Origin: Leeuwenhoekiella polynyae
GTDB taxonomy: Bacteria; Bacteroidota; Bacteroidia; Flavobacteriales; Flavobacteriaceae
Assembly: GCF_004104075.1 (NCBI RefSeq)
Contig: NZ_QOVK01000001.1
Location: 496,001-560,000, forward strand
DNA length: 64,000 bases
Direction: 5' to 3'
The notes beneath the pieces are model-generated. The model was not told where the DNA came from. It searched no databases and saw nothing but the letters and a program-made list of their open reading frames with translations. This document shows, piece by piece, positions 27,639-45,552 of the stretch. Positions within the stretch are counted from its first letter, which is position 1; each line of letters starts with the position of its first letter. Both the position numbers and the translations under genes were made by a program.

Positions 27639-27808
27639 TCAAATCATCACGATGCGTTCATTATAACCGTCTAAAACCGTACTGGGTATGGGTTAAACAA
27701 ATTTGGTAGTCATTAAACTAGTATGCCCTAGCATCTCCGATATTGCTTGCAACGGCACATCTTGAAGCATAGCCTCTGTGGCAAAGCTGTGTGGGGCTAC
27801 GTATGCTG
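27639..27808 (-). pseudogene. Tyrosine recombinase C-terminal remnant, copy A
   Basis: Reverse-strand codons read PHSFATEAMLQDVPLQAI then SEMLGHTSLMTT, the typical box of tyrosine recombinases (R-H-S-F-A-T ... LGH). A stop interrupts the frame, and after a shift it ends in PSTVL...YNERIVMI and TGA. No catalytic domain upstream of it remains. It is nearly identical to copy B at 28728-28887. Confidence 0.8.
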
Positions 27809-28727: not shown

Positions 28728-28887
28728 CTAAATCATCACAATCCGTTCATTATAGTCAACCAATACGGTACTTGGAAGCGATTTTAAATTAACCTGAGTG
28801 GTATTCAAGCTGGTATGCCCTAGTATCTCCGATATTGCTTGCAACGGCACATCCTGAAGCATAGCCTGTGTGGGGCTAGGTATGCTG
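28728..28887 (-). pseudogene. Tyrosine recombinase C-terminal remnant, copy B
   Basis: Reverse-strand frame reads QAMLQDVPLQAISEILGHTSL, then NTTQVNLKSLPSTVLVDY and NERIVMI, then TAG. Compared with copy A it lacks 13 bases that encode the HSFAT segment; the deletion lies between short ACAG repeats. Where an active enzyme has the nucleophilic Tyr soon after LGHTSLNTTQ, this copy has VNLKS, so it could not act even if whole. Confidence 0.8.
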
Positions 28888-28980: not shown

Positions 28981-29035
28981 TTTTGCCAAAAGTGTTTTCA
29001 ACCAAAATTATCCACAAGAGGTTAAGTTTGGCAAA
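28981..29035 (+). promoter_or_regulatory. Candidate operator of the GH2 operon
   Basis: TTTTGCCAAAAGTG at 28981-28994 and inverted TTTGGCAAA at 29027-29035. The GCCAAA and TTTGGC cores start 42 bases apart. The same pair with the same 42-base spacing lies ahead of the hybrid regulator gene. Confidence 0.55.
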
Positions 29036-29066
29036 TACGAGAACAATTCTTAGCTGCGTGACTGTA

Positions 29067-29074
29067 TATATTTG
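29067..29074 (+). promoter_or_regulatory. Candidate -7 box of the GH2 operon
   Basis: TATATTTG fits TAnnTTTG, 18 bases before the chosen ATG. A matching TTG is not clear, as expected of an activated promoter. Confidence 0.45.
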
Positions 29075-29092
29075 GCTGTATTAACTACAACT

Positions 29093-31840
29093 ATGCCGAA
29101 TAAGATTAAAAAAGTACTATTACTAATTGTATGTTCTGTTATAACGATTTCTTCTTTTTCACAAGAAGAGATTCAAGAACGTACGTATAATTATACGTTA
29201 AGTTCAGTGGAAGGTCATAACGGAATGTATGACTGGAAAATGAAAAAAGCCGATGAATTGCCTACGCGTTCTGAAGCTATTTCAACACTTGAAGTAAGCA
29301 CAAAAGATTGGATGCCGGCTATAGTTCCGGGAACCGTTTTAAATTCTCTTGTCTACAACGATGTATATCCTGAACCTTACTATGGGTTGAATAATAAACT
29401 GGAGTCTCAACGCATTCCGGATTTATACCATGCCGGCAGGGATTTTTACACCTATTGGTTTCGAACCGAATTTAATGCTGATGAAAGCTTGTTTAAAAAC
29501 CAAAAGGTTTGGATGCAGGTTGATGGTATTAACTATCGAGCTGAAATATGGTTAAACGGAAAGATGGTAGGCAATCTCTCGGGCATGTTTTTGCAAAAGC
29601 AACTTGAGATTACTGATTATTTGGTTTATGATCAGCAAAATGTACTTGCTGTAAAGGTTTATCCCGTGGATTCTCCGGGAACCATCAAGCCTAAAGGCGG
29701 AAAATCTTTCGGAGCTGAAGGAGAATTCCAAAACGGAGGGAATGGTGAGATAGGTAGAAATGTAACACAGTTAATGACTGTAGGTTGGGATTTTACCTTT
29801 CTGGATGGCATCAGGGATAGAAATACCGGTGTATGGAAAGACATCAAGATTTTCACAACCGGTAAAACCATTTTAAATCATCCTTTTGTAAAATCAGAAC
29901 TGGCAAAACCTAATTACGATAGCTCCAAGCAGACGATTTCAGTAGAGGTGGCTTACCCTAATTATCTTCCCCAAAACAAGCGACAAAAAGTTAAAATTAT
30001 CGGAGCGATCAAAGGGGAGAATATCCATTTTGAAAAAGAGGTAGCTCTCTATAGGGAAGAAGTAAAGGAGGTAGTATTTACCCCGGAAGAGTTTCCGCAA
30101 CTAATCATAGCTAATCCCCGCTTGTGGTGGCCCGTAAATAAAGGAAAACAAGAATTATATGATTTGGTCTTAAAGACCGAAATCGATGGAGTAGTGACCG
30201 ATTCTATTTTTACACGCTTTGGCATACGGGAAATTACCTCAACTACAGACACTCCAGACCAATCCAGGACTTTCCATGTTAACGGCAAACCTATGTTTAT
30301 TAGAGGAACGAATTGGTTGCCTGAAAATATGCTGCGTACCTCAAAGGAGCGGACTTATGCTCAATTAAGATACTCCGCACAGTCTGGGATAAACCTCATT
30401 CGCTTTTGGGGAGGTGGCATTACTGAATCTGATTATTTTTTCCAGTTGTGTGATGAACTGGGTATACTGGTTTGGCAGGAGTTCTGGATGACAGGTGATA
30501 CCCAACATCCGCAAGATGTGGGATTATACCTGTCTAATGTTACGTCAACGGTAAAAAGGATACGCAACCATCCCAGCCTTGCTTATTATGTGTCGTCTAA
30601 TGAAAGCACACAAATGCCCCATATCGAATCGCTGCTGAATTATTTAGATGGTAGCAGAGGGTATCAAATGCAATCTGAAACTGATGGAATTCATGATGGA
30701 AGCCCTTATAAGCAGGTAAATATTATGAATCATTATGAAAATACCGCCTCAGAACGAGGAAGCCGTATTGATGGGTTCAATCCGGAATATGGAGCGCCTT
30801 GCCTTCCAACAGTAGAGTGTCTTCGAGAGATGATGGATGAAGAAGACCTTTGGCCCATTAACAAAGAAGTTTGGGATTATTTAGATGGTAATGGGTTTCA
30901 CTTAATGACCTCCATGTATACAGATATGACCAATGAATACGGTGTATCTGGCAGCATTGATGAATTTGCCATGAAGGCTCAGTTTGTAGGAGCTATGAAT
31001 TATAAGAGCATTTGGGAGGTCTGGAACTATAATAAATTGAATTATGGTGATCGATATGCTTCAGGTTTTCTGTACTGGTATCATAATTCTCCTATTCGGC
31101 AGGTATGTGGGCGTATGTGGGATTGGTCCTTAGAACCTACAGCGGCATTATACACCGCGCAAAATGCTTGTGAGCCGTTGCACCCCCAGTTTGATTATTT
31201 AAAAAACACCGTGTCAGTAGTTAATGACTACTACCAGTCTTTTGAAAATTATAGGGTGACAGCAGATGTGTATGATTTAAATATGAATAAACTATTTACC
31301 AAATCTGTAACAATAGATTTACCGGAGGCTGCTGTGGCAAATGATATTTTTAAAATTGAATTTCCGGCTAAAACAACTTCCATTCAATTTATTAAACTCA
31401 GGTTGTTTGATGCTCATAATAATCAGGTAGGAAGTAATTTTTATTGGCGATCAAGCAATACTTATAAAGGTCGAAATACACTTACCGGGCCCGCTACAGC
31501 TGGATTTCAGGATATCAATAAACTGGATCAAACCACAATAGATGTGAACTATACCACTTCGGTAGAATCCGGCAAACATTTCATCACTCTCGATTTAAAA
31601 AACACGGGAAAGACCCTTTCCTTTTTCACACAAATACAATGGTTGGATGACAAAGGGAGACCCGTAAGACCCTCTTTTTATTCCGATAATTTTATGAGTT
31701 TACTGCCAGGAGAGTCCCAATCTGTAACTATAGAAACAGCTGTTGCTAATCTTTCTGAAGCATCATACTCCCTGGTTGTAAAGGGAATTAATATCAGCAC
31801 CAAAAAATTTAAGATAAAACCCTGTGCAGATTGCTTTTGA
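29093..31840 (+). CDS. GH2-family exo-glycosidase, secreted
   Basis: Retaining beta-glycosidase of GH2, nearest by eye to the beta-mannosidase/exo-beta-glucosaminidase branch. The ATG at 29093 gives a Sec signal (PNKIKKVLLLIVCSVITISS); a TTG seven codons earlier is less likely. The 915 residues show an N-terminal jelly-roll sugar-binding domain, Ig-like domains, the TIM barrel entry FHVNGKPMFIRGTNWLPENM, and INLIRFWGGGI. Probable acid/base Glu504 lies in SSNES and probable nucleophile Glu565 in PEYGAP. It is the first gene of the plus-strand operon and is followed 26 bases later by GH130. Exact sugar specificity cannot be read from the sequence. Confidence 0.85.
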   Translation: MPNKIKKVLLLIVCSVITISSFSQEEIQERTYNYTLSSVEGHNGMYDWKMKKADELPTRSEAISTLEVSTKDWMPAIVPGTVLNSLVYNDVYPEPYYGLNNKLESQRIPDLYHAGRDFYTYWFRTEFNADESLFKNQKVWMQVDGINYRAEIWLNGKMVGNLSGMFLQKQLEITDYLVYDQQNVLAVKVYPVDSPGTIKPKGGKSFGAEGEFQNGGNGEIGRNVTQLMTVGWDFTFLDGIRDRNTGVWKDIKIFTTGKTILNHPFVKSELAKPNYDSSKQTISVEVAYPNYLPQNKRQKVKIIGAIKGENIHFEKEVALYREEVKEVVFTPEEFPQLIIANPRLWWPVNKGKQELYDLVLKTEIDGVVTDSIFTRFGIREITSTTDTPDQSRTFHVNGKPMFIRGTNWLPENMLRTSKERTYAQLRYSAQSGINLIRFWGGGITESDYFFQLCDELGILVWQEFWMTGDTQHPQDVGLYLSNVTSTVKRIRNHPSLAYYVSSNESTQMPHIESLLNYLDGSRGYQMQSETDGIHDGSPYKQVNIMNHYENTASERGSRIDGFNPEYGAPCLPTVECLREMMDEEDLWPINKEVWDYLDGNGFHLMTSMYTDMTNEYGVSGSIDEFAMKAQFVGAMNYKSIWEVWNYNKLNYGDRYASGFLYWYHNSPIRQVCGRMWDWSLEPTAALYTAQNACEPLHPQFDYLKNTVSVVNDYYQSFENYRVTADVYDLNMNKLFTKSVTIDLPEAAVANDIFKIEFPAKTTSIQFIKLRLFDAHNNQVGSNFYWRSSNTYKGRNTLTGPATAGFQDINKLDQTTIDVNYTTSVESGKHFITLDLKNTGKTLSFFTQIQWLDDKGRPVRPSFYSDNFMSLLPGESQSVTIETAVANLSEASYSLVVKGINISTKKFKIKPCADCF

Positions 31841-31866
31841 TAAAATCAAACTAAGAATACAAGTAC

Positions 31867-33015
31867 ATGAAAAAGCAGATCATTTCTATTAGTGTTTCAA
31901 TACTATTCTTACTCAGTGTTTCATGTACCACAATGAAACCAACTAAAGAGGAGAAAAGTGATCGTATACCCGCTTGGGCACTGGGTGAATTTGTTCGGCC
32001 TGATATAGATCATCCGGTCATTTCACCGGATCCTGCCAGTGCGTTTTATTGCCCTATGAATCAGGCTGAAGTTAAATGGGAAGAAAGTGAGACCTTCAAT
32101 CCAGGGGCCATCACACATAATGGTAAAATAGTCGTTCTCTATCGGGCAGAAGATAATTCAGGGCAAGGGATCGGTAAACGTACTTCGCGTATAGGATATG
32201 CCGAAAGCAGTGATGGCATCAGTATGGAAAGAAGGGGAGAGCCGGTGCTTTTTCCTGCTAATGATGCTTATGCAGATTTAGAGTGGCGCGGAGGCTGTGA
32301 AGACCCCAGGGTTACCATGACTGAAGACGGTTTGTACGTGATGCTCTACACCGCCTGGAACCGTAAATTGGCCCGTTTAGCAGTGGCTACTTCAAGGGAT
32401 CTCATTCATTGGGAAAAGCATGGTCTAGCATTTGAAAAGGCTTACAACGGGCGGTTTAAAAATCTGTTCTGTAAATCAGCCTCTATGTTAACAGCCATTA
32501 AGGATGACAAAATACGTATTCAAAAACTCAACGGCCAATACTTCATGTACTGGGGAGAACATGCAATCTACGCGGCTACATCGAAGGATCTGATCAACTG
32601 GGAGCCTGTATTAGATGATAATGAGGAGCTCAAGGTAATAGCGAAACCCCGTAAAGGCTTTTTTGACAGCATCTTTACAGAATGCGGCCCCCCTGCCTTG
32701 ATGACTGATAACGGAATTGTTTTACTGTATAATGGTAAGAATGCACGAACTGATGGTAACGGGGATCCTAACTATCCTTCGGGCGCTTATTGCTCCGGTC
32801 AACTATTGATGGATGCCCGTGATCCCCTCAAAGTATTGGACCGTTTAGATAAACCGTTTTTCTATCCGGAAGCACCTTACGAAAAAAGCGGACAATATGC
32901 CCAGGGTACCGTATTCATTCAGGGCTTGGCTTATTTAAATAATACCCTGTATCTCTATTACGGTTGTGCCGATTCTAAAGTTGGGGTCGCTATGTGCAGC
33001 TATAGGAATAAGTAA
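31867..33015 (+). CDS. GH130-family glycosidase/phosphorylase, lipoprotein
   Basis: Five-bladed propeller enzyme of the GH130 type, which covers beta-mannoside phosphorylases and beta-1,2-mannosidases. The 382 residues begin with a lipoprotein leader (LLSVSC, Cys20), so it sits on an envelope membrane. Family motifs are ETFNPGAI (about 75-82), LYRAED (91-96) and GCEDPRV with the catalytic Asp146. A surface or periplasmic place is more compatible with hydrolysis than with phosphorolysis, but the phosphate-binding residues could not be checked by eye. Homologues are sometimes mislabelled as pesticidal proteins. It lies between GH2 and the FAD oxidoreductase in one operon. Confidence 0.8.
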   Translation: MKKQIISISVSILFLLSVSCTTMKPTKEEKSDRIPAWALGEFVRPDIDHPVISPDPASAFYCPMNQAEVKWEESETFNPGAITHNGKIVVLYRAEDNSGQGIGKRTSRIGYAESSDGISMERRGEPVLFPANDAYADLEWRGGCEDPRVTMTEDGLYVMLYTAWNRKLARLAVATSRDLIHWEKHGLAFEKAYNGRFKNLFCKSASMLTAIKDDKIRIQKLNGQYFMYWGEHAIYAATSKDLINWEPVLDDNEELKVIAKPRKGFFDSIFTECGPPALMTDNGIVLLYNGKNARTDGNGDPNYPSGAYCSGQLLMDARDPLKVLDRLDKPFFYPEAPYEKSGQYAQGTVFIQGLAYLNNTLYLYYGCADSKVGVAMCSYRNK

Positions 33016-33027
33016 AAACTAATTGAA

Positions 33028-34899
33028 TTGAAACAGATAATCAACCTTATAATCATCTTAATCGTTTGCACGCACACTATGTTTGCATACGAGTATGATG
33101 TTGTTATTGTAGGCGGAACACCTGCTGGAATAACCGCAGCCATTGCAGCAGCCCGGGAAGGCAAACACTGTCTTATTTTAGAACGAACGGGACATATAGG
33201 AGGGCTTCCGGTAAATGGTCTGGGGGCAACTGATATCGCAACAAGAGATGCCACTACCGGTTTGTTTAAGCAATTTGTTAGCTTGAATAAAGAGTACTAT
33301 AAAGCTCAATTTGGTATGGACTCCCCACAGGTAAAACAAAGTAGTGATGGCTACCATTTTGAGCCGCATGTGGCCGCTGCATCATTTGATAAAATGATAG
33401 GGATGGCCGGGCCGGGAAAGATAGAGGTTTTAGTATTCAGACAATTTGATTCTGCACCTAAATATGTAAACAAAGAAGGGAATACCATTCAATCCATTCG
33501 AATACTCAACAGGCAAACCGGACACGAGGAGTATTATAGTGCTCAAGTATTTATTGATGCAACTTATGAAGGGGATCTTGGAGCTGCTGCTGGTGTCCCG
33601 TATCGGTTAGGGAGAGAAGGAATAGATGAATTTGACGAACCTTGTGCGGGTAAAATTTACCGTTGGTGGAAACATGGACCTGATGAAGAGGGAACTACCT
33701 ATCAAGGTGATAATGCCATACAGGCATATAATTACCGTTTATGCCTGACCAACAATCCTAATAATCGTTTGCCAGTGGTTAAACCAGAAGCTTATGACCG
33801 GGAAGAATTCGTGTCATTAATTGAAGATGTGCTTACCGGGCAAAACACCGATATCCGTTTCAGTCCGGTAGATAGTGCCCAAATACAGGCAAATAGAAGA
33901 AAAATTCTTGCAGGAGAGAAAACTGCCATTCCCGGAGACCCCTGGGGTATTTGGAAACTTTGCAGCATGACCTCCTTACCAAACAGAAAGGTAGATGCCA
34001 ATAATCAGCACCTTGCCTTGCTATCTACAGATCTTCCCGAAGAAAATTGGCCTTGGCCCACATCGGGATGGGCATGGCGTGATCAATATGCTAAGCGACT
34101 TAAGTCATATACGTTAGGGTTATTGTGGTTTGCTCAAAATGATAAAGTCCTTCCTGAACATTTTCGGGAGGCATGTAAATCGTGGGGCTTTGCTAAAGAT
34201 GAGTATCAGGATAATCATGGATTTCCACGTCAGGTTTATGTGCGCGAAGGCAGGCGCCTTGAAGGAATGCACCTCTTTACCGCCCATGATGCGCTACCTT
34301 TAGAGAAAGGAGGTCGACCACCTGTTTACAGTACCTCTGTCACTGCCAGTCATTATGCGCTCGATTCGCACGGGGTACGTAAGCGAGAGCCAGAGCGTGT
34401 GCATCTGGATGGGTTTTTTAGTCATCCATCAGCTCCTTATACCGTTCCTTATGGGGTGATGGTACCCAAGTTGATAAACAACTTGCTTTTTCCTGTTGCG
34501 GTATCTGGGAGTCACGTGGGTTTTTCAACCTTACGTATGGAACCCTGTTGGATGGCTCTGGGTGAAGCAGCAGGTATTGCAGCAGCTTTGACCATAAATA
34601 ATGAGGTGAGCGTAAGGGAAATCCCCATTAATCTGCTCCAGGAAACGCTCCTCAATAACGGGGCTACATTAATTTATTTTAATGATCTCAAGGCTACAGA
34701 TGTTGAGTTTAAAGAGATCCAGAAATTAGCTCTTCTTGGATTTTTTCCAGAATGGGAGGCCTCACTTGATGAAGATCTCGATATCAATACAGGGCATTTG
34801 TGGAATAAGCTAACACACAAAAACATACCGTATAACGGAAAAGCTAAAAGGGAATTAATTAAAACACTTCTAACAGAGTGGAGCCAAATTGAAAACTAA
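33028..34899 (+). CDS. Exported FAD-dependent oxidoreductase (FAD_oxidored family)
   Basis: Flavoprotein of 623 residues. An N-terminal Sec-like signal (KQIINLIIILIVCTHTMFA) is followed at once by the Rossmann dinucleotide site VVIVGGTPAGITAA and LILERTGHIGG. The C-terminal part has the family stretch RMEPCWMALGEAAGIAAAL, which closes the FAD site. The start is a TTG at 33028, since no ATG precedes the signal. Its stop is two bases before the SusC start region, so it is firmly in the operon. This family is frequent in Bacteroidota glycan loci, but the reaction is mostly unknown; oxidation of a sugar hydroxyl is possible. FAD export without a twin-arginine signal is notable. Confidence 0.82.
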   Translation: MKQIINLIIILIVCTHTMFAYEYDVVIVGGTPAGITAAIAAAREGKHCLILERTGHIGGLPVNGLGATDIATRDATTGLFKQFVSLNKEYYKAQFGMDSPQVKQSSDGYHFEPHVAAASFDKMIGMAGPGKIEVLVFRQFDSAPKYVNKEGNTIQSIRILNRQTGHEEYYSAQVFIDATYEGDLGAAAGVPYRLGREGIDEFDEPCAGKIYRWWKHGPDEEGTTYQGDNAIQAYNYRLCLTNNPNNRLPVVKPEAYDREEFVSLIEDVLTGQNTDIRFSPVDSAQIQANRRKILAGEKTAIPGDPWGIWKLCSMTSLPNRKVDANNQHLALLSTDLPEENWPWPTSGWAWRDQYAKRLKSYTLGLLWFAQNDKVLPEHFREACKSWGFAKDEYQDNHGFPRQVYVREGRRLEGMHLFTAHDALPLEKGGRPPVYSTSVTASHYALDSHGVRKREPERVHLDGFFSHPSAPYTVPYGVMVPKLINNLLFPVAVSGSHVGFSTLRMEPCWMALGEAAGIAAALTINNEVSVREIPINLLQETLLNNGATLIYFNDLKATDVEFKEIQKLALLGFFPEWEASLDEDLDINTGHLWNKLTHKNIPYNGKAKRELIKTLLTEWSQIEN

Positions 34900-34901
34900 A
34901 T

Positions 34902-37900
34902 ATGATTACTAAACTTAAATTCAAATGTATGATTTCAAAAACAAAGTATTGTTTGCTTATGTTTCTCTGTATGTTTATGTGCGTTTCTGTAAAGGCGCAA
35001 ACGGGAGATAAAGATATATCGGGTGTTGTTGTTGACGCAAACAACATGCCTTTGATGGGAGTAACTATTGCAATAAAGAACACTAATAAAGGTACCGTAA
35101 CTGATTTTGACGGAGCCTTTAGTTTATCGGTTCCCGAAGATGCAACTCTTCTAGTTTCTTATGTGGGCTTCGCTACAAAGGAGGTTGAGGTAACTGAAAA
35201 TGCTACCTATACGATAACGTTGGAGGAAGATTCATTTGATTTAAATGAAGTTGTCGTGGTAGGATATGGATCTATGAGAAAAAAAGATCTTACAGGAGCT
35301 ATCACGCAGATTCGTCCTGATGATATAGCCAATGAAAATCCAAATACGGTTCAGGATATTTTAAGAGGAACTCCCGGTGTCCAGGTGGGTTTTAGCAATT
35401 CAGCAAAAGGAGGAGGAAGTATACAGATTCGAGGTCAACGCTCTGTTTATACTGCAGGAAATCATAACAGTCCATTACTGGTTCTTGATGGGATGATTTT
35501 TTATGGAGAGTTATCTGAAATTAATCCAGATGATATAGGGCAAATTGATATTCTAAAAGATGCTTCTGCGGCAGCTGTTTATGGAGCTAAAGCAGCTAAC
35601 GGAGTTATTATTATCACCACTAAGAAAGGGAAAAAGGGCAAGCCCAAAATCAATTTGAGTATGAATACCGGAGTTTCACAGGTAGCAGCCCTACGGGATA
35701 GATGGGGGCCTGATGATTATTTGCGTCATCGTCAGGACTGGTTTGAAACGGCCACCTATGGGGTTAATTACCTGACTGAAGGTTATGAGAGGTATCAAGT
35801 AGGTCAGATGGCTTCTAAACCGGCATATTATACAAATCCAAATAACCTTCCGGGCGATGTTGCTGTAGAAGACTGGCGGGCCTATACTCAAAATGCTGGG
35901 GATGAGTCCGATTTAAGTATCTGGGCTCAAAGACTGGGCATCACCGGGAACGCCCTCGAGAATTTATTAGCAGGAAAAACAGTTGACTGGAAAGATCATG
36001 CTTTTAGAGCAGGCTTCAATCAGGATTATAATGTAAGTGTAAGTGGAGCCGGGGATAATGCAGATTACTATTTCTCTATGGGTTATTTAAGTAATGAAGG
36101 CGTTGTAAGAACCGATAATTACAGTGCGATACGAAGTAATTTAAAAGTGAACTTAGATGTTACAGACTGGTTACAGATTGGGGCTAATGTGAATTTTCAG
36201 GACAGATCTGATGATAATATTGGTTTGAATGTAGGGTCTACCTTAAACAATAGTCCATTTGCTGATTATGCTGATGAAAATGGTAACCCGGTTCAATATC
36301 CTTTTGATGATAGCTACAGCAGAAGAGGGTATAACTTTGATTTTGAAAGAAAATATGCCCAACAGGAAAGTGGTTATACTACGCTTAATAGCATTTTCAA
36401 TGTTAAGGTCAAATTACCTCTCGATATTACGTATACATTTAATGCTTCACCTCGATATCAGTTCTATTATAATCGAAAGTTTACTTCAGCAGACTTACCT
36501 TTTTCAAACCCCAAAGACCGTGGTGTAGACAGGAACCAGGCAAAGCGTTTCAACTGGTCGTTGAACAATACAATAGAATGGAATCATATTTTTAACAAAA
36601 AACACCATTTCATTTTAACACTCGTGCAAGAAGCAGAAGAGCTTCAGTATTGGAGTGATGATATCTATGCACGCAATATACAGCCTTCTGATGCTTTGGG
36701 CTTTCATAATACACAAAACGGTACCAAAGAAGATAGTTCGTTCTCTTCTTCCGATAGTTACCAGACAGCAGACGCACTATTGGCACGCTTATTTTATTCT
36801 TTTGATAATCGTTATTTGATTACCGGATCTATACGTAGAGATGGTTATTCTGCTTTTGGATCATCTAATCCACACGCCATTTTTCCTTCTGTGTCTCTGG
36901 CATGGACATTTACCAATGAAAAGTTTTATAACTGGAATCGTATTATGGATTATGGGAAATTACGCCTTTCGTATGGTAAAAACGGAAACCGTTCATTAAG
37001 CAGTCCGTATTTGGCATTAGCAAATTTATCTTCCGGTGCTGGTAAAATGCAAGGATATCTAAACGGTAGCGGGGACGAAGAGCTTTATCGTTATTTAATT
37101 GTTGACCGTATGGCAAATCCTGGCTTGCAATGGGAAAAGACAGCTTCATGGAATGTTGGTCTCGATTTTGGCTTTTTGGATGGCCGCATAGGAGGTAGCC
37201 TGGATTTGTATTATGCAGAAACTCAAGATATGATTATGGCACAGCGCCTACCTGAGTTTACCGGATTCTCTGATATTACAACAAACTTAGGACAGGTTAA
37301 TAACTCTGGTATTGAATTCACACTGAATACAAGAAATATTGATAAAGAAAACTTTCAATGGAATACTACTGTAGGCTTTTTCTATAATAAAAATGAAATC
37401 AAGCACCTGTATTACGAATATGAAAATGGGGTAGAAGTAGATGACGTGAGTAACGGTTGGTTTATTGGAGAACCTATTAGCGCAATCTGGGATTATAAAG
37501 TAACCGGTATCTGGCAAAAAGATGAAGTGGAAGCAGCAGCGGAGTTCGGACAAAAACCGGGAGATCCTAAAGTTGCCAATATTTATACTGAAGATGATAT
37601 CATAAACAGCGACGGTTCTGTAACACCGGTATATAACGATAACGATAAAGTAATCCTGGGTCAGTCTGCGCCACCTATTAACTGGTCGTTACGCAATGAT
37701 TTTACATTCTGGAAAAATCTGACAGTCTCCTTTAATATGTATTCCTATATGGGACATAAAAGTTTAAATAACGAATATTTAAATGATGATGATCACGGTT
37801 CTAATATGTCTTTAGGTTTTATAAATCTTCCTGAAAAAGAATATTGGACAGTCGATAACCCTTCAAACACTTACGGACGGATTGGAGCAGTAGGTCCCAC

Positions 37901-38135
37901 TGGTGCTCAAGCACCTGGAAGACTTATTGATCGTTCGTTTATTCGTCTCGAAAATATCACTGTAGGATATTCATTCCCAAAAAAGATGATATCAAAATAT
38001 AGTTTAGATCGGCTTAAAGTTTACGCCGCTGTACGTAATGTGGCAACCTGGGAGAAAGAATGGGAATATGGAGACCCCGAAACCGGATCATTTGCACCCC
38101 GCATTGGAACTTTAGGATTGAATATTACTTTTTAA
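34902..38135 (+). CDS. susC: SusC/RagA-type TonB-linked outer-membrane transporter
   Basis: Outer-membrane glycan importer working with the SusD lipoprotein encoded next. The 1077 residues start with a signal peptide ending SVKAQ. ATG 34902 or 34929 are both possible starts; the later one gives a more compact signal. A carboxypeptidase-like regulatory domain (ISGVVVDANNMPLMGVTI ... LLVSYVGF) follows, then the SusC-specific motif LNEVVVVGYGSMRKKDLTGAI. The plug holds LLVLDGMIFYGELSEINPDDI and DILKDASAAAVYGAKAANGV. The remainder is a 22-strand-type barrel with WEKTASWNVGLDFGFLDGRI. Only two bases separate it from the FAD oxidoreductase stop. Substrate is presumably an oligosaccharide released by the locus enzymes. 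Confidence 0.95.
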   Translation: MITKLKFKCMISKTKYCLLMFLCMFMCVSVKAQTGDKDISGVVVDANNMPLMGVTIAIKNTNKGTVTDFDGAFSLSVPEDATLLVSYVGFATKEVEVTENATYTITLEEDSFDLNEVVVVGYGSMRKKDLTGAITQIRPDDIANENPNTVQDILRGTPGVQVGFSNSAKGGGSIQIRGQRSVYTAGNHNSPLLVLDGMIFYGELSEINPDDIGQIDILKDASAAAVYGAKAANGVIIITTKKGKKGKPKINLSMNTGVSQVAALRDRWGPDDYLRHRQDWFETATYGVNYLTEGYERYQVGQMASKPAYYTNPNNLPGDVAVEDWRAYTQNAGDESDLSIWAQRLGITGNALENLLAGKTVDWKDHAFRAGFNQDYNVSVSGAGDNADYYFSMGYLSNEGVVRTDNYSAIRSNLKVNLDVTDWLQIGANVNFQDRSDDNIGLNVGSTLNNSPFADYADENGNPVQYPFDDSYSRRGYNFDFERKYAQQESGYTTLNSIFNVKVKLPLDITYTFNASPRYQFYYNRKFTSADLPFSNPKDRGVDRNQAKRFNWSLNNTIEWNHIFNKKHHFILTLVQEAEELQYWSDDIYARNIQPSDALGFHNTQNGTKEDSSFSSSDSYQTADALLARLFYSFDNRYLITGSIRRDGYSAFGSSNPHAIFPSVSLAWTFTNEKFYNWNRIMDYGKLRLSYGKNGNRSLSSPYLALANLSSGAGKMQGYLNGSGDEELYRYLIVDRMANPGLQWEKTASWNVGLDFGFLDGRIGGSLDLYYAETQDMIMAQRLPEFTGFSDITTNLGQVNNSGIEFTLNTRNIDKENFQWNTTVGFFYNKNEIKHLYYEYENGVEVDDVSNGWFIGEPISAIWDYKVTGIWQKDEVEAAAEFGQKPGDPKVANIYTEDDIINSDGSVTPVYNDNDKVILGQSAPPINWSLRNDFTFWKNLTVSFNMYSYMGHKSLNNEYLNDDDHGSNMSLGFINLPEKEYWTVDNPSNTYGRIGAVGPTGAQAPGRLIDRSFIRLENITVGYSFPKKMISKYSLDRLKVYAAVRNVATWEKEWEYGDPETGSFAPRIGTLGLNITF

Positions 38136-38161
38136 AACTTAATTAAAATAAGATATAGAGT

Positions 38162-40198
38162 ATGAAAAATAGAATAAAAAAAACAAAATATGCAGTAGTG
38201 CTGTTGGCCTTAGTGGGCTTTCTGGTAGTGCTTAACGGGTGTTCTGATGATTTCCTGGAACCCGATCCCGTATCTATCTATGAACCGGGCCAAACCTTTT
38301 CGACAGAGTCAGGATTAAGATCCCTATTAGCTTTTTGTGATCGCCATTTAAAACTGTTCTACACTTCAGGAGATAATAATGCAATAAACCCAATTGGAAC
38401 GGAGTATATTTTCTCTGATTTGATGGTTCCTGGAGCACATAATTATGAAACGATGCTACACAATATGGCAGAGGGTCTTACACCTACTAGTGTTGGCATT
38501 GGTAGCGGAAGATTATTTACATCTTTACAACAAAACCATAGTATATGGCATTTTTGGCATGAGAGTTATTATACCATAATGCAGGCCAATACCATCATTC
38601 AATATGTAGATGATATAGAGTCTCTGGATGAGGAAACCCGAAATGCTTACAAAGGAAGGGCCTATTTTCATCGTGCTTTCCGTTACTATAATTTGGTATT
38701 TCAGTTTGGAGATGTACCCTTGTTAACTAAGGTTACCGAAGTTCCTAAGCAGAATTACAGGAGTACTGAGCGGGAAGAGATATTGGAGATGTTGATTCAG
38801 GATATGGAAAAGGCTGTTGAATGGGTTCCAAACCAGTCTGAAATGGCCTTGGTGGGTATGGTTAATAAAGGAGCTTGCCGCATGTTGCTGTCTAAATTAT
38901 ATTTGGCGATGGGTGAGTATGGCTTAGCTGAAGATCAACTCGACGTGTTGATTGATGGCTCCCAATATGCATTGATTAGAGGGGATAGTTTTGGTTCGTT
39001 TAATGATGGAGGTGAGCCAGAGGCCTGGCCAATTGAGCGTAATGTAATTTGGGACATGCACCGGGCAGAAAACAAATTAATTCCTTCAAATAGTGAGGTA
39101 ATATTGGGAATTGTAAATCGGGGATCAGATACCGAAGGTTTTGTTCCTATGCATACTATGCGTATCTATTACCCATTTTATTTTGAAAATACCACAAGCG
39201 CCCCCAAAACCAAAGATGGTAAGCAGGCGTTGTTAAATCTATCCAGAACTAATGGAGACTATGTTGAGGAGTATGATTATTTACGGGCTTTAGGTCGTGG
39301 TATAGGGACATTTCGCCCTACGTATTATCAAACCCATACACTGTGGAAAGTTAATGGCATAATGGATGCTACTGACTTACGTCACAGCTCTGAAACTGGA
39401 AACTGGGTGCGTATGGAAAATCTTAAGGTTAATAACAAAGCATCCGCTCAGTATGGGCAACCGCTAACCTTACGTGATGATTCTGGAAATCTACTATGTA
39501 CAGATACCATTAGACGCTGGTATGATGTGCCGCATTACAAATTTTTTCTTAATGATCCCATAAATGAAGCTCAATTGAACAGCACGAGTTATAATGGTGC
39601 GACCAACGGAGGTAATGCCGATTGGTATTTGTACCGTTTGGCAGAGGCCTATCTGTTACGTGCAGAGGCTAAATTTTATCAGGGTAATCTGGGTGGCGCA
39701 GCATCAGATGTGAATGAAATTCGTATGCGGGCACAATGTACCGAGCTTTATCAAGGTTCGGTTACCATAGGCGATATTATGGATGAACGCGCTCGTGAAT
39801 TATACATGGAAGAATGGCGTAATGTTGAATTAACCCGGGTATCATTGTGTCTTGCCCGTAGCGGTATGCCAGACGAGTGGGGCAATACCTATAGTCTGGA
39901 TAATTTTGATAAACAACAGGGAACAGATCCTAATGGGGGTAGCTATTGGTATCAGCGGGTTACTAGATGTGGTAAAATTTATAATGGAGAACCCATTAGT
40001 GTAGAAGGTGGAAAAATAAACCCGATAAATTATACTATGGATAAGAAAAATATTTACTGGCCTATTTTTAATCAATCTATTACCGCTAACAGAAAGGGTA
40101 ATCTGGCACAAAATTATGGCTATGACGGTTATAACCCTGCTACTCCTAAATGGAATACGTGGGAGGAAGCCATTGCAGATGAAGATAAAATAGAGTAG
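38162..40198 (+). CDS. susD: SusD/RagB-type surface glycan-binding lipoprotein
   Basis: Outer-leaflet lipoprotein forming the lid of the SusC channel and binding glycan. The 678 residues have a lipobox VLNGC (Cys27), then tetratricopeptide-like helices. Typical SusD stretches are GRAYFHRAFRYYNLVFQFGDVPLLT near 160 and YRLAEAYLLRAEAKFYQGNLGGAASDVNEIRMRA near 490 (quoted in part by key residues), then DERARELYMEEWRNVELTR. Length is at the upper end for the family. It follows SusC by 26 bases. A strong hairpin after the stop may lower expression of the next gene relative to SusCD. Confidence 0.95.
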   Translation: MKNRIKKTKYAVVLLALVGFLVVLNGCSDDFLEPDPVSIYEPGQTFSTESGLRSLLAFCDRHLKLFYTSGDNNAINPIGTEYIFSDLMVPGAHNYETMLHNMAEGLTPTSVGIGSGRLFTSLQQNHSIWHFWHESYYTIMQANTIIQYVDDIESLDEETRNAYKGRAYFHRAFRYYNLVFQFGDVPLLTKVTEVPKQNYRSTEREEILEMLIQDMEKAVEWVPNQSEMALVGMVNKGACRMLLSKLYLAMGEYGLAEDQLDVLIDGSQYALIRGDSFGSFNDGGEPEAWPIERNVIWDMHRAENKLIPSNSEVILGIVNRGSDTEGFVPMHTMRIYYPFYFENTTSAPKTKDGKQALLNLSRTNGDYVEEYDYLRALGRGIGTFRPTYYQTHTLWKVNGIMDATDLRHSSETGNWVRMENLKVNNKASAQYGQPLTLRDDSGNLLCTDTIRRWYDVPHYKFFLNDPINEAQLNSTSYNGATNGGNADWYLYRLAEAYLLRAEAKFYQGNLGGAASDVNEIRMRAQCTELYQGSVTIGDIMDERARELYMEEWRNVELTRVSLCLARSGMPDEWGNTYSLDNFDKQQGTDPNGGSYWYQRVTRCGKIYNGEPISVEGGKINPINYTMDKKNIYWPIFNQSITANRKGNLAQNYGYDGYNPATPKWNTWEEAIADEDKIE

Positions 40199-40220
40199 AT
40201 AGAAAATTATAATACTATAT

Positions 40221-40260
40221 AAAATAGACTGGCCATTCAGAGATGTGGCCAGTCTATTTT
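40221..40260 (+). terminator. Hairpin between SusD and GH43 genes
   Basis: A perfect 15-bp inverted repeat (AAAATAGACTGGCCA / TGGCCAGTCTATTTT) with a ten-base loop, but only four T residues at its end. It may act as a partial terminator or mRNA-stabilising stem inside the operon. Confidence 0.7.
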
Positions 40261-40279
40261 GTAACTAATCTAAAAATAA

Positions 40280-41410
40280 ATGAATAAATTAAAGAACTCA
40301 CTGAGATTACTTGTTCTAATAACTATATCTACATTCGTCATATCTTGTGGAAATAGGAAGAATAATAAGAACGATAGCGGAGTAACCTACTCAAATCCAT
40401 TAGATGTCAAATATGGCGACCCTTTTATACTTAAAGCCTCTGATGGTAAATACTATATGTACGGAACCGATGGCAGCGCTCCGGGCTTTAAGGTTTATGA
40501 GTCTCAGGACTTGGCAGCGTGGAAATATGTAAAAATGGCTTATGAGGGTGGTAAAGAAGACTCTTGGACTAAAGATAGTTATTGGGCACCTGAAGTTTAT
40601 GAACGCAAGGGTAAATATTATATGTTTTTTAGTGCTAATTGGAAATACAATCCCAATAATGAAGAAGAAGTATTTAGGATAGGTGTTGCAGTATCTAATA
40701 CTCCTACCGGCCCTTTTAAAGATTTGGGAGATCGCCCCATATTTGATCCCGGCTACCCCATTATAGATGCAAATGTTTTATTTGACGACGTTCATAATAA
40801 AACCTATTTGTATTATTCCAGATGTTGTTACAAACACCCTGTTGAGAGCGAGATTGCCGATTGGGCAAAAGACAAAGGCTGGTATGATGAAATTGAAGAA
40901 AGTTGGGTTTATGGTGTTGAAATGGCTTCTGATTTTTCGGGTGTTATTGGCGAACCCGAACTACTGTTACGTCCTCCGCTTAAAATGAATAATGTTCAGG
41001 CAGAATGGGAAAGTCGTTCCGTAACGGCCAGAGAGACCAACCGCAGATGGACCGAAGGCTCCTATATTTTTGAACATCAGGATACCTATTATATGCTTTA
41101 CTCTGCAAACTATTTTGGGGGGCAGTATTATGCCATGGGTTACGCGACATCCAAAAATCCATTGGGTCCATTTAAAAAGGCTGAGAATAACCCGATACTA
41201 CAGAAAAACAATGACCAAGGAGGTGGCGTTACCGGTACCGGACATGGTATGGTACTCGATGTAGCAGATTCAAAAAAGTTGTGTGTATATCACGCTCGTA
41301 CAGCAGAAACCGGAAATGATCGGGTTGTATTTATGGATGAGTTGGAGATTTTAGAAGATGGTACATTAGTGGTTCACGGTCCAAAAAGTGGTAATGTAGC
41401 TGTAAAATAA
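40280..41410 (+). CDS. GH43-family glycosidase, lipoprotein
   Basis: Five-bladed propeller glycosidase, inverting, of the arabinofuranosidase/xylosidase family. The 376 residues begin with a lipobox (FVISC, Cys23). The three catalytic acids are in place: Asp47 (KYGDPFI, base), Asp163 (IIDANVLFDD, pKa modulator) and Glu259 (RRWTEGSYIF, acid). A linker of about 20 polar residues separates the lipid anchor from the domain. It is the last gene of the plus-strand operon, after a hairpin that follows SusD. It ends at a bidirectional terminator facing the GH105 genes. Arabinose or xylose side-chain removal is likely; which one is not decidable. Confidence 0.88.
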   Translation: MNKLKNSLRLLVLITISTFVISCGNRKNNKNDSGVTYSNPLDVKYGDPFILKASDGKYYMYGTDGSAPGFKVYESQDLAAWKYVKMAYEGGKEDSWTKDSYWAPEVYERKGKYYMFFSANWKYNPNNEEEVFRIGVAVSNTPTGPFKDLGDRPIFDPGYPIIDANVLFDDVHNKTYLYYSRCCYKHPVESEIADWAKDKGWYDEIEESWVYGVEMASDFSGVIGEPELLLRPPLKMNNVQAEWESRSVTARETNRRWTEGSYIFEHQDTYYMLYSANYFGGQYYAMGYATSKNPLGPFKKAENNPILQKNNDQGGGVTGTGHGMVLDVADSKKLCVYHARTAETGNDRVVFMDELEILEDGTLVVHGPKSGNVAVK

Positions 41411-41433
41411 ATAGAAAAATGAAATCAAAGAAA

Positions 41434-41474
41434 TTCAAAAAGCCATTCTTAATTCTAAAGAATGGCTTTTTGAA
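41434..41474. terminator. Bidirectional terminator between converging glycan operons
   Basis: A 17-bp inverted repeat (TTCAAAAAGCCATTCTT / AAGAATGGCTTTTTGAA) around a seven-base loop, with T and A runs on both sides. Confidence 0.92.
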
Positions 41475-41493
41475 TTAAGCGTAAAACCAAAAA

Positions 41494-42726
41494 TCAAGGT
41501 TTATCTAATAAAGCATAGGCACACCATATCAAGGCTGCCTGTCCATGAAGATCGCCCACCCATCTGCGACGGTCTCTATAGTATTCATAAGAGTAGCCTA
41601 TACCTGTTCCTTCACATACTTCGGTTATATCATTTTTGCTATCAAGATACGTAAGTAATGCTAACCAACCCTTACGTGCAACCGTTCCATATTTTTCTTC
41701 TTCAAGCCAACCTTTTTTCACTCCCGTAATCATTGCATATGTAAACATAGCGCTTCCGGAGCTCTCGGCCCACATGTCACTGGTATTGGGGTGATCTACC
41801 AGCTGTGACCACATCCCATCAGGACGTTGATATTTTGCCAATTCGCTCATCATTTTGAGGTAGGCATTCATAATTCTTGAACGGTCAGGATGATTTTCGG
41901 GGAGTAATTTAAGCACTTCTACCATACCTACAGCCATCCAGCCATTCCCTCTTGCCCAATAATACGGAGCAGAAGGAGCGTGATAAAACAAGCCATTATC
42001 CCGTTGTATTCGGTCAAGATAGAGTACCATTTCATCGGCTGTTCGCTCCCTGTATTTCTCATCTTTAGTAACCTGATAGGCCTGAGCTTGTAGTGCGGTA
42101 ATCATAAACATATCATCAATCCATAGACGTGTTTGCCACGAGAACCCCTGGTCATGCCATTCTTTTTCTGTTGAGCTGGCGTTGTTGGGTAAAGTCCACT
42201 GCCGGTCTGCATACGTCATCCCCAAATCAAAATAGTTGGCTTCTTTCTTTCGCTGATATATCTGTAAAGGAATAGCTCCAAAAACATAGTAATCTACTTT
42301 GTTACTAGCCGTAGGTGTTAGCGTGGGTTGTAGATCTTTATCTGTTGTAAAAAGAGGGGCAAATTTGTTAACCACATCATTATACAACAAATCATCGTCT
42401 ACAGCATCTGCAAACCACAATGCGCCGAGCCAGGCGCAGGCATCTGGGTAAGTGACGTGGTCTGCAGTATAATTAGAGTATATGTTTCCCCAAAAAGAAT
42501 AGTCAACATTTATAAATCTTTGGGTCAACTTTTTGCCTACTTCTACAGGTCCCTGACCTTTACGGAAATCAATTAGATTGTAACTGGTAGTATCTTTCTC
42601 TTCTACGATGGGGGTGTCATCATCAGTAGCTATGGGTTCATCTGTTGAATCACTGCCGCAAGCACCCAATAGCAATAATAAGTGCAAAACGATAATTATC
42701 GAGGCTAATAATTTTATAGTTTTCAT
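41494..42726 (-). CDS. GH105 unsaturated uronyl hydrolase, lipoprotein, copy 1
   Basis: Hydrolase that removes a 4,5-unsaturated uronic acid from the non-reducing end of lyase-made oligosaccharides. The 410 residues start with a lipobox (LLGAC, Cys23) and an acidic linker (about 25-45), then an (alpha/alpha)6 barrel. Family motifs are TYPDACAWLG near 92, RLWIDDMFMI with the likely catalytic Asp204/Asp205, and ARGNGWMAVGM. The C-terminal end has GDLHGQAALIWCAYAL. It lies 15 bases behind a second GH105 gene and is clearly a duplicated copy of it, though the two have diverged. Unlike that paralogue it is lipid-anchored. Confidence 0.9.
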   Translation of the reverse strand: MKTIKLLASIIIVLHLLLLLGACGSDSTDEPIATDDDTPIVEEKDTTSYNLIDFRKGQGPVEVGKKLTQRFINVDYSFWGNIYSNYTADHVTYPDACAWLGALWFADAVDDDLLYNDVVNKFAPLFTTDKDLQPTLTPTASNKVDYYVFGAIPLQIYQRKKEANYFDLGMTYADRQWTLPNNASSTEKEWHDQGFSWQTRLWIDDMFMITALQAQAYQVTKDEKYRERTADEMVLYLDRIQRDNGLFYHAPSAPYYWARGNGWMAVGMVEVLKLLPENHPDRSRIMNAYLKMMSELAKYQRPDGMWSQLVDHPNTSDMWAESSGSAMFTYAMITGVKKGWLEEEKYGTVARKGWLALLTYLDSKNDITEVCEGTGIGYSYEYYRDRRRWVGDLHGQAALIWCAYALLDKP

Positions 42727-42741
42727 GGGGTCAGCTTATCG

Positions 42742-43887
42742 TTACTTGCTTAACGCGTATGAACACCAGATCAGGGCTGCCTGACCGTGAAGGTCTCCGG
42801 TTAATTTTTTACGGTTGAGGTAATAATCATAATCATTCTTAGTTCCTGTACCTTCACAAACATTCCGCAGATTATAATCCTCGTCCAGGTAGGTCAACAA
42901 TGCAGACCATCCTTTACGTGCTGCCGCCCCATACACTTTTTTGTCAAGCCACCCGTTTTTAACACCGGTAATCATGGCATAAGTAAACATCCCCGTACAT
43001 GATGTTTCTTTCCAAGAATTAGGATCGTCTATTAACTGGTGCCACATCCCGTCATAACTTTGATAGCGCAGCAACGTCTGCATCATGCTTTTATATGCTG
43101 TTTCTATTTTTTCTCGGTTAGGATTGTCTTTAGGCATTAGACGTAGCATCTCGGTCATTCCAACCGCCATCCAGCCATTACCCCGCCCCCAAAAAAACGG
43201 AGCATCTGGTGCGTGATAGAAAAGACCATTGGGGCGTTGTATATTATCTAAGTACAGCACCATTTCATCGACAGCCCGATTTATGTATTTCTCATCACCT
43301 GTAACCAGATAAGCTTGGGCTTGTACGGCAGTAATCATGAACATATCGTCAATCCAAAGACGTGTTTGCCAGGAATGCCCCTGGTCATGCCATTTTTTTT
43401 CATCTCCCCTGGGAGTGTCAGGAAGTATCCATTGTTTATCTGCATAAGCTAACCCCAGATCCAAATATTTCTTATCTTTTTCTTTCTTATATATCTCTAA
43501 AGGAACAGCGCCAAAAACATACCAATCCACTACATTATGAGGTTTAGGACGAAATTCGGGTAGCATATCCTTTTGTGTGTTAAAGAGGGGATCAAACCGA
43601 TCTACTAATTGGTCATATAAAACTTCATTATCAGTAGCTTTTGTGAACCATAGACCTCCCAACCAGGCACATACATCTGGATAGGTGACAAATGGGGCTT
43701 CGTTTTTTGAGTTGATGCGTCCCCAGTCAGAGAAAGGTGTCTCAAGTAAATGCTCAACAAGTTTAGCACCTATTTCTTCCGGCTGACTACCTTTAGGAAA
43801 TTTATTCAAATCTGAACTTTGAGAGTGAGCACTGAAAACAACCGTGACGAAAAATAAAATGTTTAGAATAAGAGGACGAATTTTCAT
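42742..43887 (-). CDS. GH105 unsaturated uronyl hydrolase, secreted, copy 2
   Basis: Paralogue of the downstream gene, 381 residues. It has a cleavable Sec signal (residues 1-22, ending AHSQS) instead of a lipid anchor. The barrel motifs repeat: TYPDVCAWLG, RLWIDDMFMI with Asp180/Asp181, GRGNGWMAVGM and GDLHGQAALIWCSYAL. The two proteins differ in leader and linker and across the barrel surface, so they may act on different oligosaccharides or in different compartments. The gene lies 43 bases after the BACON-GH43 gene and 15 before copy 1, one minus-strand operon. Confidence 0.9.
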   Translation of the reverse strand: MKIRPLILNILFFVTVVFSAHSQSSDLNKFPKGSQPEEIGAKLVEHLLETPFSDWGRINSKNEAPFVTYPDVCAWLGGLWFTKATDNEVLYDQLVDRFDPLFNTQKDMLPEFRPKPHNVVDWYVFGAVPLEIYKKEKDKKYLDLGLAYADKQWILPDTPRGDEKKWHDQGHSWQTRLWIDDMFMITAVQAQAYLVTGDEKYINRAVDEMVLYLDNIQRPNGLFYHAPDAPFFWGRGNGWMAVGMTEMLRLMPKDNPNREKIETAYKSMMQTLLRYQSYDGMWHQLIDDPNSWKETSCTGMFTYAMITGVKNGWLDKKVYGAAARKGWSALLTYLDEDYNLRNVCEGTGTKNDYDYYLNRKKLTGDLHGQAALIWCSYALSK

Positions 43888-43930
43888 TTTTAGGAATATA
43901 ATGTGTTTAATAGTATTGATTAATAGGTTT

Positions 43931-45301
43931 CTAGCGACTTTCTCCAGAGGGTAAGGCTATGGGCTCTTCCCATCCTACGGGTCTGCCAAAATAGGGAGTA
44001 CCGTCTTGCTCATCCCATGTAAATCTCTGAAGAAAGGTATACCGGTTAGACCATCCACTTTCATTGAAAGCTTTAACGTGGTAAGCAATCCAATCTTCAG
44101 TACCGTCGGGTGACTTGGTAAAACTGCAATGTCCTACTCCATTTACTCCGCTGGTAGGGTTTACGGTTTCATCATTACGGAAGAAGACTTCGTTGGCCGA
44201 TTTTGTCCAGTTGGAAGCAACAAGAGGATCAGATAGAGTATCACTAAGTTGTAAATAACCTAGTCTGTATTGTTTTGTCCAGGACCCGTTAGTGGAGTAC
44301 ACGACAAAGAATTTTCCTTTCTCCTTATTTTTAAGAAATGCAGGTCCTTCATTTACTTTCCCGGAAAAAAGTTCCCAGGGTTTATCTGGTTTTGATATGG
44401 CAACTCGAGAAGATGATATCGTATAGGGGTTGTCCATTTTTGCTATATAGAGCCATTGGTCCCCGCTATCTTCCGGGTTTCCAGACCATACAGCATATAA
44501 CTGGTTGTTTAATTTAAAAACACCTAAATCAATAGCATAATTGGTGTTTTCGGTGGTAGCTATAATTCCTGGCTCATAATTATCTCCTGTATAAAGCATT
44601 CCTAAATCTTCCCATTCACCCTGCGGGTCATTAGTTTTAGACCTTAGAACCCCACTGCGTTGCTTGGTATAGGAACCGTTAGATTCACTGGTAGGCCTGC
44701 CAGCGGCATAGTAAATGTACCATTGCCCTTCAATGAAATGCAGCTCGGGTGCCCAAATATTGGTAGGGTTCCATACTTTATTGTCATTAGAATCAGTAGG
44801 GGCATCCCACACCTTACTGGTTAATGGGAAGCTGGTAAGTTTATCCGATTTAGCAATGTTGATACCATTACCCTGAGCTTTGCATATATAGTAACTGGTG
44901 CCATTTTTAATAATCCACGGGTCTGGGATGCCTGCAATAGGATTTGTGAAAGTAAGTTCAGTCTGAATAATTTCAAGTTCAACAGCAGGTAATCCGTTCG
45001 TAGTAAATTTTACTATGCCCGAACGCTCGTTCGTAGTATTATCACTATAACTAATCTTAACAGCCATTTCACCTTCTCCTTTGTTCTTATCAGGCGTCAA
45101 CCAGTTGGCCTCTGATTCAACCGTCCAAGAAGTATTAGAAACCACATAGACGGTTATGTTTCCTGAAGAGTTGGTTATAGTTAGATTAGTATCGCTTAAT
45201 CGCAGGCTGGGATCTGGGATGTTTTCTGATAGTTCGTCACCACCACACGATCCTACTGCTAGAGCTATCAAAAAAATAAAAAGGGAATGGACATTTTTCA
45301 T
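43931..45301 (-). CDS. BACON-GH43 glycosidase, lipoprotein
   Basis: Surface-exposed glycosidase of 456 residues. Lipobox AVGSC (Cys19) is followed by a BACON domain (about 30-115, with SNTSWTVESEANWLTP and RSGIVKFTTNG), typically a spacer or carbohydrate/mucin-adhesion domain. The GH43 propeller comes next, with catalytic Asp127 (GIPDPWI), Asp258 (NYAIDLGVF) and Glu318 (KVNEGPAFL). It is the first gene of the minus-strand operon and is divergent from the hybrid regulator gene. The GH43 domain is quite different from that of the plus-strand operon enzyme, so it probably serves another linkage. Confidence 0.87.
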   Translation of the reverse strand: MKNVHSLFIFLIALAVGSCGGDELSENIPDPSLRLSDTNLTITNSSGNITVYVVSNTSWTVESEANWLTPDKNKGEGEMAVKISYSDNTTNERSGIVKFTTNGLPAVELEIIQTELTFTNPIAGIPDPWIIKNGTSYYICKAQGNGINIAKSDKLTSFPLTSKVWDAPTDSNDNKVWNPTNIWAPELHFIEGQWYIYYAAGRPTSESNGSYTKQRSGVLRSKTNDPQGEWEDLGMLYTGDNYEPGIIATTENTNYAIDLGVFKLNNQLYAVWSGNPEDSGDQWLYIAKMDNPYTISSSRVAISKPDKPWELFSGKVNEGPAFLKNKEKGKFFVVYSTNGSWTKQYRLGYLQLSDTLSDPLVASNWTKSANEVFFRNDETVNPTSGVNGVGHCSFTKSPDGTEDWIAYHVKAFNESGWSNRYTFLQRFTWDEQDGTPYFGRPVGWEEPIALPSGESR

Positions 45302-45400
45302 AAGTACCTATTTAGTTTACGGGTATTAATTACCGTGATTTGTGCATGCTCATTTTATTCTCTAACGATTTCGAGTATAGTGTAAAGCACGAAAGACGAA

Positions 45401-45535
45401 TATAGGTTGAACTCCTAAAAACCTATAATCTCGTTTTTGCCAAATGTGCTCTATCTAGTATAATTGTATTCAAGGACACTTTTGGCTATAAACGGTACGT
45501 TTTAGGGCTTTGAAAACATCCTATTAACCTATAAT
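45401..45535. promoter_or_regulatory. Divergent regulatory region with two repeated motifs
   Basis: Motif 1 is TATAGGTT (45401-45408) and its inverse AACCTATA (45420-45427) with an 11-base spacer, repeated as AACCTATAAT at 45526-45535. Motif 2 is TTTTGCCAAATGTG (45435-45448) and its inverse CACTTTTGGC (45477-45486), with GCCAAA and TTTGGC cores 42 bases apart, exactly as ahead of the GH2 operon. The region separates the GH43 operon and the regulator gene. Confidence 0.6.
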
Positions 45536-45552
45536 TCTTTATTTATTTGCGT

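Follow-up and report, generated by a model that had tools for sequence, protein, structure and literature searches.

We present evidence for a shared regulatory site in Leeuwenhoekiella polynyae, occurring in two copies that we interpret, with a probability of about 60%, as one activator operator placed before both catabolic operons of a single polysaccharide utilization locus (PUL) and bound by the hybrid two-component regulator (HTCS) encoded there. At the level of sequence, a bipartite, inverted and promoter-phased site precedes two catabolic gene sets of this PUL. The cluster has the defining SusC/SusD pair together with glycoside hydrolases, and the sites lie where HTCS operators are expected, namely upstream of operons in the PUL that holds the HTCS gene. 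All coordinates (Table 1) are positions in the window, i.e. the entire 64,000-nucleotide stretch of DNA that was analysed; searches of the organism's own genome cover 4.79 Mb.

Table 1. Features of the two sites, their promoters and the associated genes, in window coordinates
Feature	Position	Strand	Basis or remark
Operator 1, block A GCCAAAAGTGT	28985-28995	+	sequence comparison
Operator 1, block B AATTAT	29006-29011	+	sequence comparison
Operator 1, block C TTTGGCAAATACGAGA	29027-29042	+	sequence comparison; whole operator 28985..29042
Operator 2, block A GCCAAAAGTGT	45486-45476	-	sequence comparison
Operator 2, block B AATTAT	45465-45460	-	sequence comparison
Operator 2, block C TTTGGCAAAAACGAGA	45444-45429	-	sequence comparison; whole operator 45429..45486
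Probable -7 box TATATTTG, GH2 operon	29067..29074	+	consensus TAnnTTTG
Probable -7 box TATATTCG, divergent operon	45397..45404	-	operator distance same as at 29067
GH2, GH130, FAD oxidoreductase, SusC, SusD, GH43 (presumed operon)	29093..41410	+	
BACON-GH43, GH88 family, GH88 family (presumed operon), probably served by operator 2	41494..45301	-	
Weak candidate promoter of regulator gene: TTTG, 19 nt, TAATTCTT	45509..45539	+	by eye only
HTCS: Reg_prop propeller, Y_Y_Y, HisKA, HATPase_c, receiver, AraC-type HTH_18	45553..49671	+	Pfam
LacI-type regulator gene	63032-64072 (L176:33-1073)	-	Pfam

Site 1 (28985-29032) consists of GCCAAA at 28985-28990 and TTTGGC at 29027-29032, and site 2 (45439-45486) of the same arms at 45439 and 45481. 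The initial annotation had reported both pairs with equal spacing, and its reading is exact: each has a 36-nt spacer, the forward GCCAAA copies continue into (A/T)GTG (AGTG at site 1, TGTG at site 2), and the sites end 61 nt before the ATG at 29093 and 67 nt before the ATG at 45553, in agreement with the 60-70 bases given there. It had named the finding of this spaced pair at many unrelated genes as a refutation; a genome-wide search returned GCCAAA-N36-TTTGGC from this cluster only, at sites 1 and 2. When spacers of 30 to 46 nt are allowed, the window holds 2 pairs against 0.19 expected (2 of 100 shuffles reach 2), and the genome 5 against 17 for the reversed-pattern control. The half-arm GCCAAAWGTG alone shows no genome-wide enrichment (19 versus 21 in the control); hence, the signal resides in the arm pair. 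Searching the genome for CCAAAAGTGT-N31-TTTGGCAAA with up to 3 mismatches recovered both sites exactly together with four 3-mismatch places (control 9), while the proximal arm combined with the -7 box recovered both sites exactly and two 3-mismatch places (control 1), which fall inside reading frames. Neither set of near-matches was accepted as further regulon members. Scored on the 52 positions shared by the two sites, the window yields 52, 52 and then 28, i.e. no third site.

The sequence flanking the pairs, initially described as unrelated, proved to be related once site 2 is reversed. An ungapped comparison of a 90-nt stretch of the GH2 promoter (28985-29074) with both strands of the window gave the minus strand at 45486 as the best non-self place, with 52 of 90 letters identical and a runner-up of 42 (mean 24.05, sd 4.24). 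In this gap-free alignment the minus strand of site 2 shares three blocks with site 1, GCCAAAAGTGT, AATTAT and TTTGGCAAA-W-ACGAGA, at 0, 21 and 42 bp. Because the arms are self-complementary and preselected, and match in either orientation, their 12 letters were excluded from a test on the remaining 78 positions. Here the minus-strand placement retains 40 matches, a value that no other of 127,818 window placements reaches (best other 39; mean 21.05, sd 3.97), whereas the plus-strand placement of site 2 has an ordinary 26 of 78, reached by 16,819 of 127,820 placements. Likewise, a composition-weighted local match with the arms included scores 18.7 on the minus strand (0 of 1500 dinucleotide shuffles; p ~5e-5 by an extreme-value fit) and 11.7 on the plus strand (reached by 158 of 1500). 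Identities in the 58-bp core fall into runs of 11, 6, 9 and 6 letters, themselves defined by identity, with 8 matches in the 26 positions between them; the 24 nt separating ACGAGA from the -7 boxes contain 5 matches and represent an unconserved spacer. Two further comparisons tell against the pair. When upstream regions are compared without correction, it scores 47 of 80, and 0.24% of 5376 between-locus pairs do as well. After AT correction its place among the 928 within-locus comparisons is only 7th, and 12 of the 9578 between-locus ones score as high, the five listed being stronger repeats of at least 42 nt.

The orientation of this extended match bears on which genes site 2 serves. The probable -7 boxes TATATTTG (29067) and TATATTCG (45404, minus strand) stand in register in the alignment, and by eye neither promoter has a TTTG, the promoter element found at -33, at the usual distance. 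This combination has the look of an activator-dependent promoter, with site 2 facing the divergent operon. TAnnTTTG at -12 to -5 is described as the sigma-A -7 box of Flavobacterium psychrophilum, of the Flavobacteriaceae (PMC9723704). From the positions of the boxes we infer that transcription of the GH2 operon would start at about 29079, with a 14-nt leader, and that of the divergent operon at about 45392 on the minus strand, with a 91-nt leader. The 251-nt gap at 45302-45552 also contains the start of the divergent BACON-GH43/GH88/GH88 genes, and site 2 appears to face these rather than the regulator gene to which it had been assigned, an assignment that we consider wrong.

Over the 120 columns of the two-site alignment, the best inverted pairing, GCCAAAAGTG with GCCAAACTTA in site 1 and GCCAAAAGTG with GCCAAATGTG in site 2, coincides with the arms first noted. 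It is reached by 2 of 2000 column permutations, or 9 of 2000 with 3-column blocks; this lends support to the inverted symmetry at 42 bp beyond chance, in a test that is neither blind nor independent of the pair's selection, as the pair was first noticed as inverted. Three of the four arms read TTTGSCAAA, which is nearly self-complementary. The best direct repeat in the alignment, at 45 bp, is reached by 131 of 2000 permutations; for direct repeats at 20-22 bp the figure is 874 of 2000. No 21-bp direct repeat was detected in the window promoters (p 0.51 in the GH2 gap, 0.14 in its last 150 nt and 0.31 in the GH43/HTCS gap). The periodicity of conservation (p 0.04 at 21 bp, 0.11 at 10.5 bp) is too weak to serve as evidence.

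HTCSs control many glycan-degradation clusters in Bacteroidota. The window protein belongs to this class by its Pfam architecture, uniting a periplasmic propeller sensor, Y_Y_Y, kinase, receiver and AraC-type HTH in one chain, and it contains what we take, from the consensus, to be the HisKA H-box and the receiver aspartate motif. An S/C-HIP motif is described for the alpha3-beta4 loop of HTCS receivers (PMC11253607); the window HTCS has N-HIP at residue 1184, keeping HIP with N in the first position. The motifs reported for 16 of 36 Bacteroides thetaiotaomicron HTCSs invariably take the form of direct repeats with a spacing of about 21 bp (PMC3878776). As in the operators described there, the window site stands before more than one operon of its PUL and adjoins the HTCS gene, and it has two parts, an unconserved spacer and phasing in multiples of 21 bp; in contrast to them, no direct repeat of about 21 bp is detected in it, and the symmetry supported is inverted at 42 bp. 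We found no precedent for an inverted 42-bp HTCS operator in the open-licence papers searched. Within the AraC family, operators of the RhaS/RhaR type have inverted half-sites with a long spacer, the proximal one near the -35 region, and serve activation. The window site shares the inversion, the long spacer, the placement of the proximal half-site and the presumed role in activation, but the RhaS/RhaR-type spacing is shorter than 42 bp, and these single-component regulators, unlike the window HTCS, have no receiver or kinase. AraC itself is described as binding tandem or inverted half-sites (PMC6018408).

To place the site among related promoters, we surveyed 37 loci or stretches for SusC-like genes lying no more than 4 kb from an HTCS and tested the resulting 25 gaps; loci were excluded if they had no SusC-like gene in range, lacked a full-length HTCS frame or offered a gap that was too short, and the tandem set includes G511 and leaves out L065, where the downstream gene is not SusC-like. 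In the relatives' tandem HTCS-SusC gaps, the best 20-22 bp repeat falls at 21 bp in 12 of 15 cases and has p<=0.05 in 13 of 15, the exceptions being L036 (0.06) and L061 (none). The relatives' SusC genes in other arrangements reach p<0.01 in two of five cases (L034 and L036), on nearly the same pyrimidine-rich stretch. Three genomes from three genera of the same family (G251, G137 and G073; gaps L156, L158/L159 and L160/L161) display a ATAGTGTACACTAT-like palindrome every 21 bp, exact in two of them and diverged in the third, and the Pedobacter loci have a ATAGTGAACT-like unit with a related ATAGTG(A/T)AC repeat. The ATAGTGTACACTAT tandem is a candidate HTCS motif outside Bacteroides. By eye, the 21-bp units lie just upstream of a TAnnTTTG-like box in these three genomes and in L031, L033 and L042.

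Among the near HTCS relatives, G511 has AGTGTC exactly repeated at 21 bp, 200 nt upstream of the SusC gene that lies downstream of its HTCS (L166/L167; p 1/500). In L030 the pair AGTGTT/AGTGTC, also spaced at 21 bp, occupies the gap ahead of the HTCS gene (L030:9661), but the SusC gene there has no repeat within 400 nt. G757 has a single AGTGT(C/T) word pair, at 24270 after the HTCS gene, and G718 has none. In the window site, AGTGT closes block A, and the next letter is T in site 1 and C in site 2. That AGTGT(T/C) is common to block A and to G511 and L030 supports the HTCS as the binder, with the reservation that this is a short word. The promoters of the window resemble those of the HTCS relatives in belonging with an AraC-type HTCS and in the AGTG found in most repeat units, and differ from them in that the units of G511, L030, G251, G137, G073, Pedobacter and others repeat directly every 21 bp. 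Within the organism's own genome, just one of five SusC promoters near another HTCS has such a repeat: on contig C9 (G000), the SusC gene beside an HTCS paralog (L142/L143) is preceded by a TTCACCC direct repeat at 21 bp (p 4/500). As the other four also lack one, a missing 21-bp repeat is not strong evidence against HTCS control. The suspicion that an HTCS paralog was interrupted by stops was dismissed, as the frame is intact and the match runs past its end. On contig C4, a large gene is preceded by a comparable repeat, TTACCC, spaced at 22 bp (p 116/500, non-significant alone), and a divergent intergenic region at ~30504-30927 (L152) contains a long inverted repeat that is nearly perfect, TTATTACTGAATATTTGATAAATGTCA.

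Pfam searches on 37 of the 38 window reading frames of at least 150 aa identified the HTCS and the LacI-type gene as the only transcription regulators. The gap between the LacI-type gene and a pectinase-like gene contains TGTAATCGTTTACA and a copy with one mismatch, TGCAATCGATTGTA (L176:1090-1103 and 1274-1287), both CG-centred, and motifs of this type have 5 strand matches in L176 against 0.46 expected; on this sequence evidence they are likely LacI operators. TTTGSCAAA is absent from that locus and the window site differs from the TGTAATCGTTTACA candidates, and on operator sequence the LacI-type regulator was therefore rejected as an unlikely binder of sites 1 and 2. By eye, the pectinase-like gene beside the LacI-type gene is followed by SusC- and SusD-like genes.

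The cluster has a narrow distribution. At E<=1e-200 the HTCS is absent from 12 other genomes of the genus; its best identity is 33% in 299 family genomes, 35-37% in 395 class genomes and 37% among the matches listed in a pattern-limited scan of GTDB contigs. The GH43 protein was found at E<=1e-80 in its own genome only, 1 of 397. No orthologous cluster was found, the HTCS loci compared being without the gene set of this PUL, nor any ortholog close enough to permit footprinting. A search for the operator with up to 2 mismatches in 397 family genomes gave 17 outside matches against 20 for reversed-pattern controls, i.e. the chance level. In 35 loci of HTCS relatives, GCCAAA-N-TTTGGC occurs at the own locus and as one differently spaced pair in L048; longer stretches of G511, G757, G718, L030, G251, G137 and G073 have no such pair, that of G251 containing one shorter CCAAA-N38-TTTGG pair. 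Just left of the GH2 promoter, 27641-27781 and 28730-28873 are two diverged remnant copies about 1.09 kb apart, which by eye read on the minus strand like the C-terminus of a tyrosine recombinase, MLQDVPLQAISEILGHTSL. Such remnants at the left end of the cluster would fit its arrival by transfer.

The initial annotation took site 2 for the operator of the regulator gene, which would thereby control itself. The site does stand close before the regulator ATG, and an inverted site is neutral as to direction; nevertheless, both the -7 box and the longer match are found on the minus strand, and on the plus strand site 2 aligns with the GH2 promoter no better than expected by chance. We accordingly regard this explanation as quite improbable, and on the orientation of the match we reject autoregulation as the principal function of site 2; that the HTCS gene regulates itself is as such possible, though unsupported. 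A bidirectional site 2, serving the divergent catabolic operon and the regulator gene alike while site 1 controls the GH2 operon, would suit a single site with inverted arms in a 251-nt divergent gap. It is nonetheless unlikely, as the matching promoter spacing is found on the divergent side only. That the resemblance of the two sites reflects chance, or a recent functionless duplication of a promoter segment, might be entertained since there are but two sites. However, the concentration of identity in runs and the want of any equal placement outside the arms make this highly improbable.

The identity of the binder is a separate matter. Part of what was initially proposed stands: the site is specific and unique to the cluster, and the HTCS is the most economical candidate for binding it. 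The case for the HTCS is weakened by the 21-bp direct repeats that prevail at the relatives' tandem promoters and are not detectable here. This leaves three options: an HTCS with inverted geometry, a degenerate direct repeat that escapes detection, or another regulator. In the last case the sites would be bound by a regulator encoded elsewhere, the HTCS acting through unseen degenerate sites, and the near self-complementary TTTGSCAAA arms are indeed as expected for a dimeric regulator. Yet a site unique to one cluster in the genome points to a local regulator, the only other one in the window has candidate operators of its own, and an invisible 21-bp repeat is common at HTCS-linked SusC promoters of this genome; we therefore consider a foreign binder rather unlikely. 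The specific proposal that the HTCS, instead of using the relatives' 21-bp direct repeat, binds half-sites that are inverted and separated by four helical turns, along with a weaker, phased contact between them, is possible though less likely than not, and we advance it tentatively.

Under the preferred reading of one HTCS-bound activator operator, the HTCS would sense an oligosaccharide in the periplasm and phosphorylate its own receiver. Based on the GH88-family, KduI, UxaC, KDPG aldolase and TRAP genes, we infer that the inducer is a uronate-containing oligosaccharide. Dimeric AraC-type domains would then bind both arms on one face of the DNA, four turns apart, and the proximal arm (~-52 to -37) may substitute for the missing -33 element and recruit RNA polymerase, both at the GH2-SusCD operon and at the divergent GH43-GH88-GH88 operon. 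Transcription of the regulator gene probably starts from a separate promoter of its own.

The occurrence of the same genome-unique site at the same promoter distance before two operons suggests that a single switch probably turns both on. The wiring of the cluster would accordingly be revised to one signal for two catabolic operons, in place of an autoregulatory loop. If the HTCS does bind the inverted arms, they would represent a second operator geometry for hybrid two-component regulators and imply that the AraC domains of a tethered kinase dimer are free to meet the DNA in tandem or inverted orientation. An operator that keeps the 21-bp phasing with inverted arms would also indicate that the direct-repeat rule, as reported for B. 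thetaiotaomicron (PMC3878776), is not general, and regulons with such arms would be missed by motif finders confined to tandem repeats.
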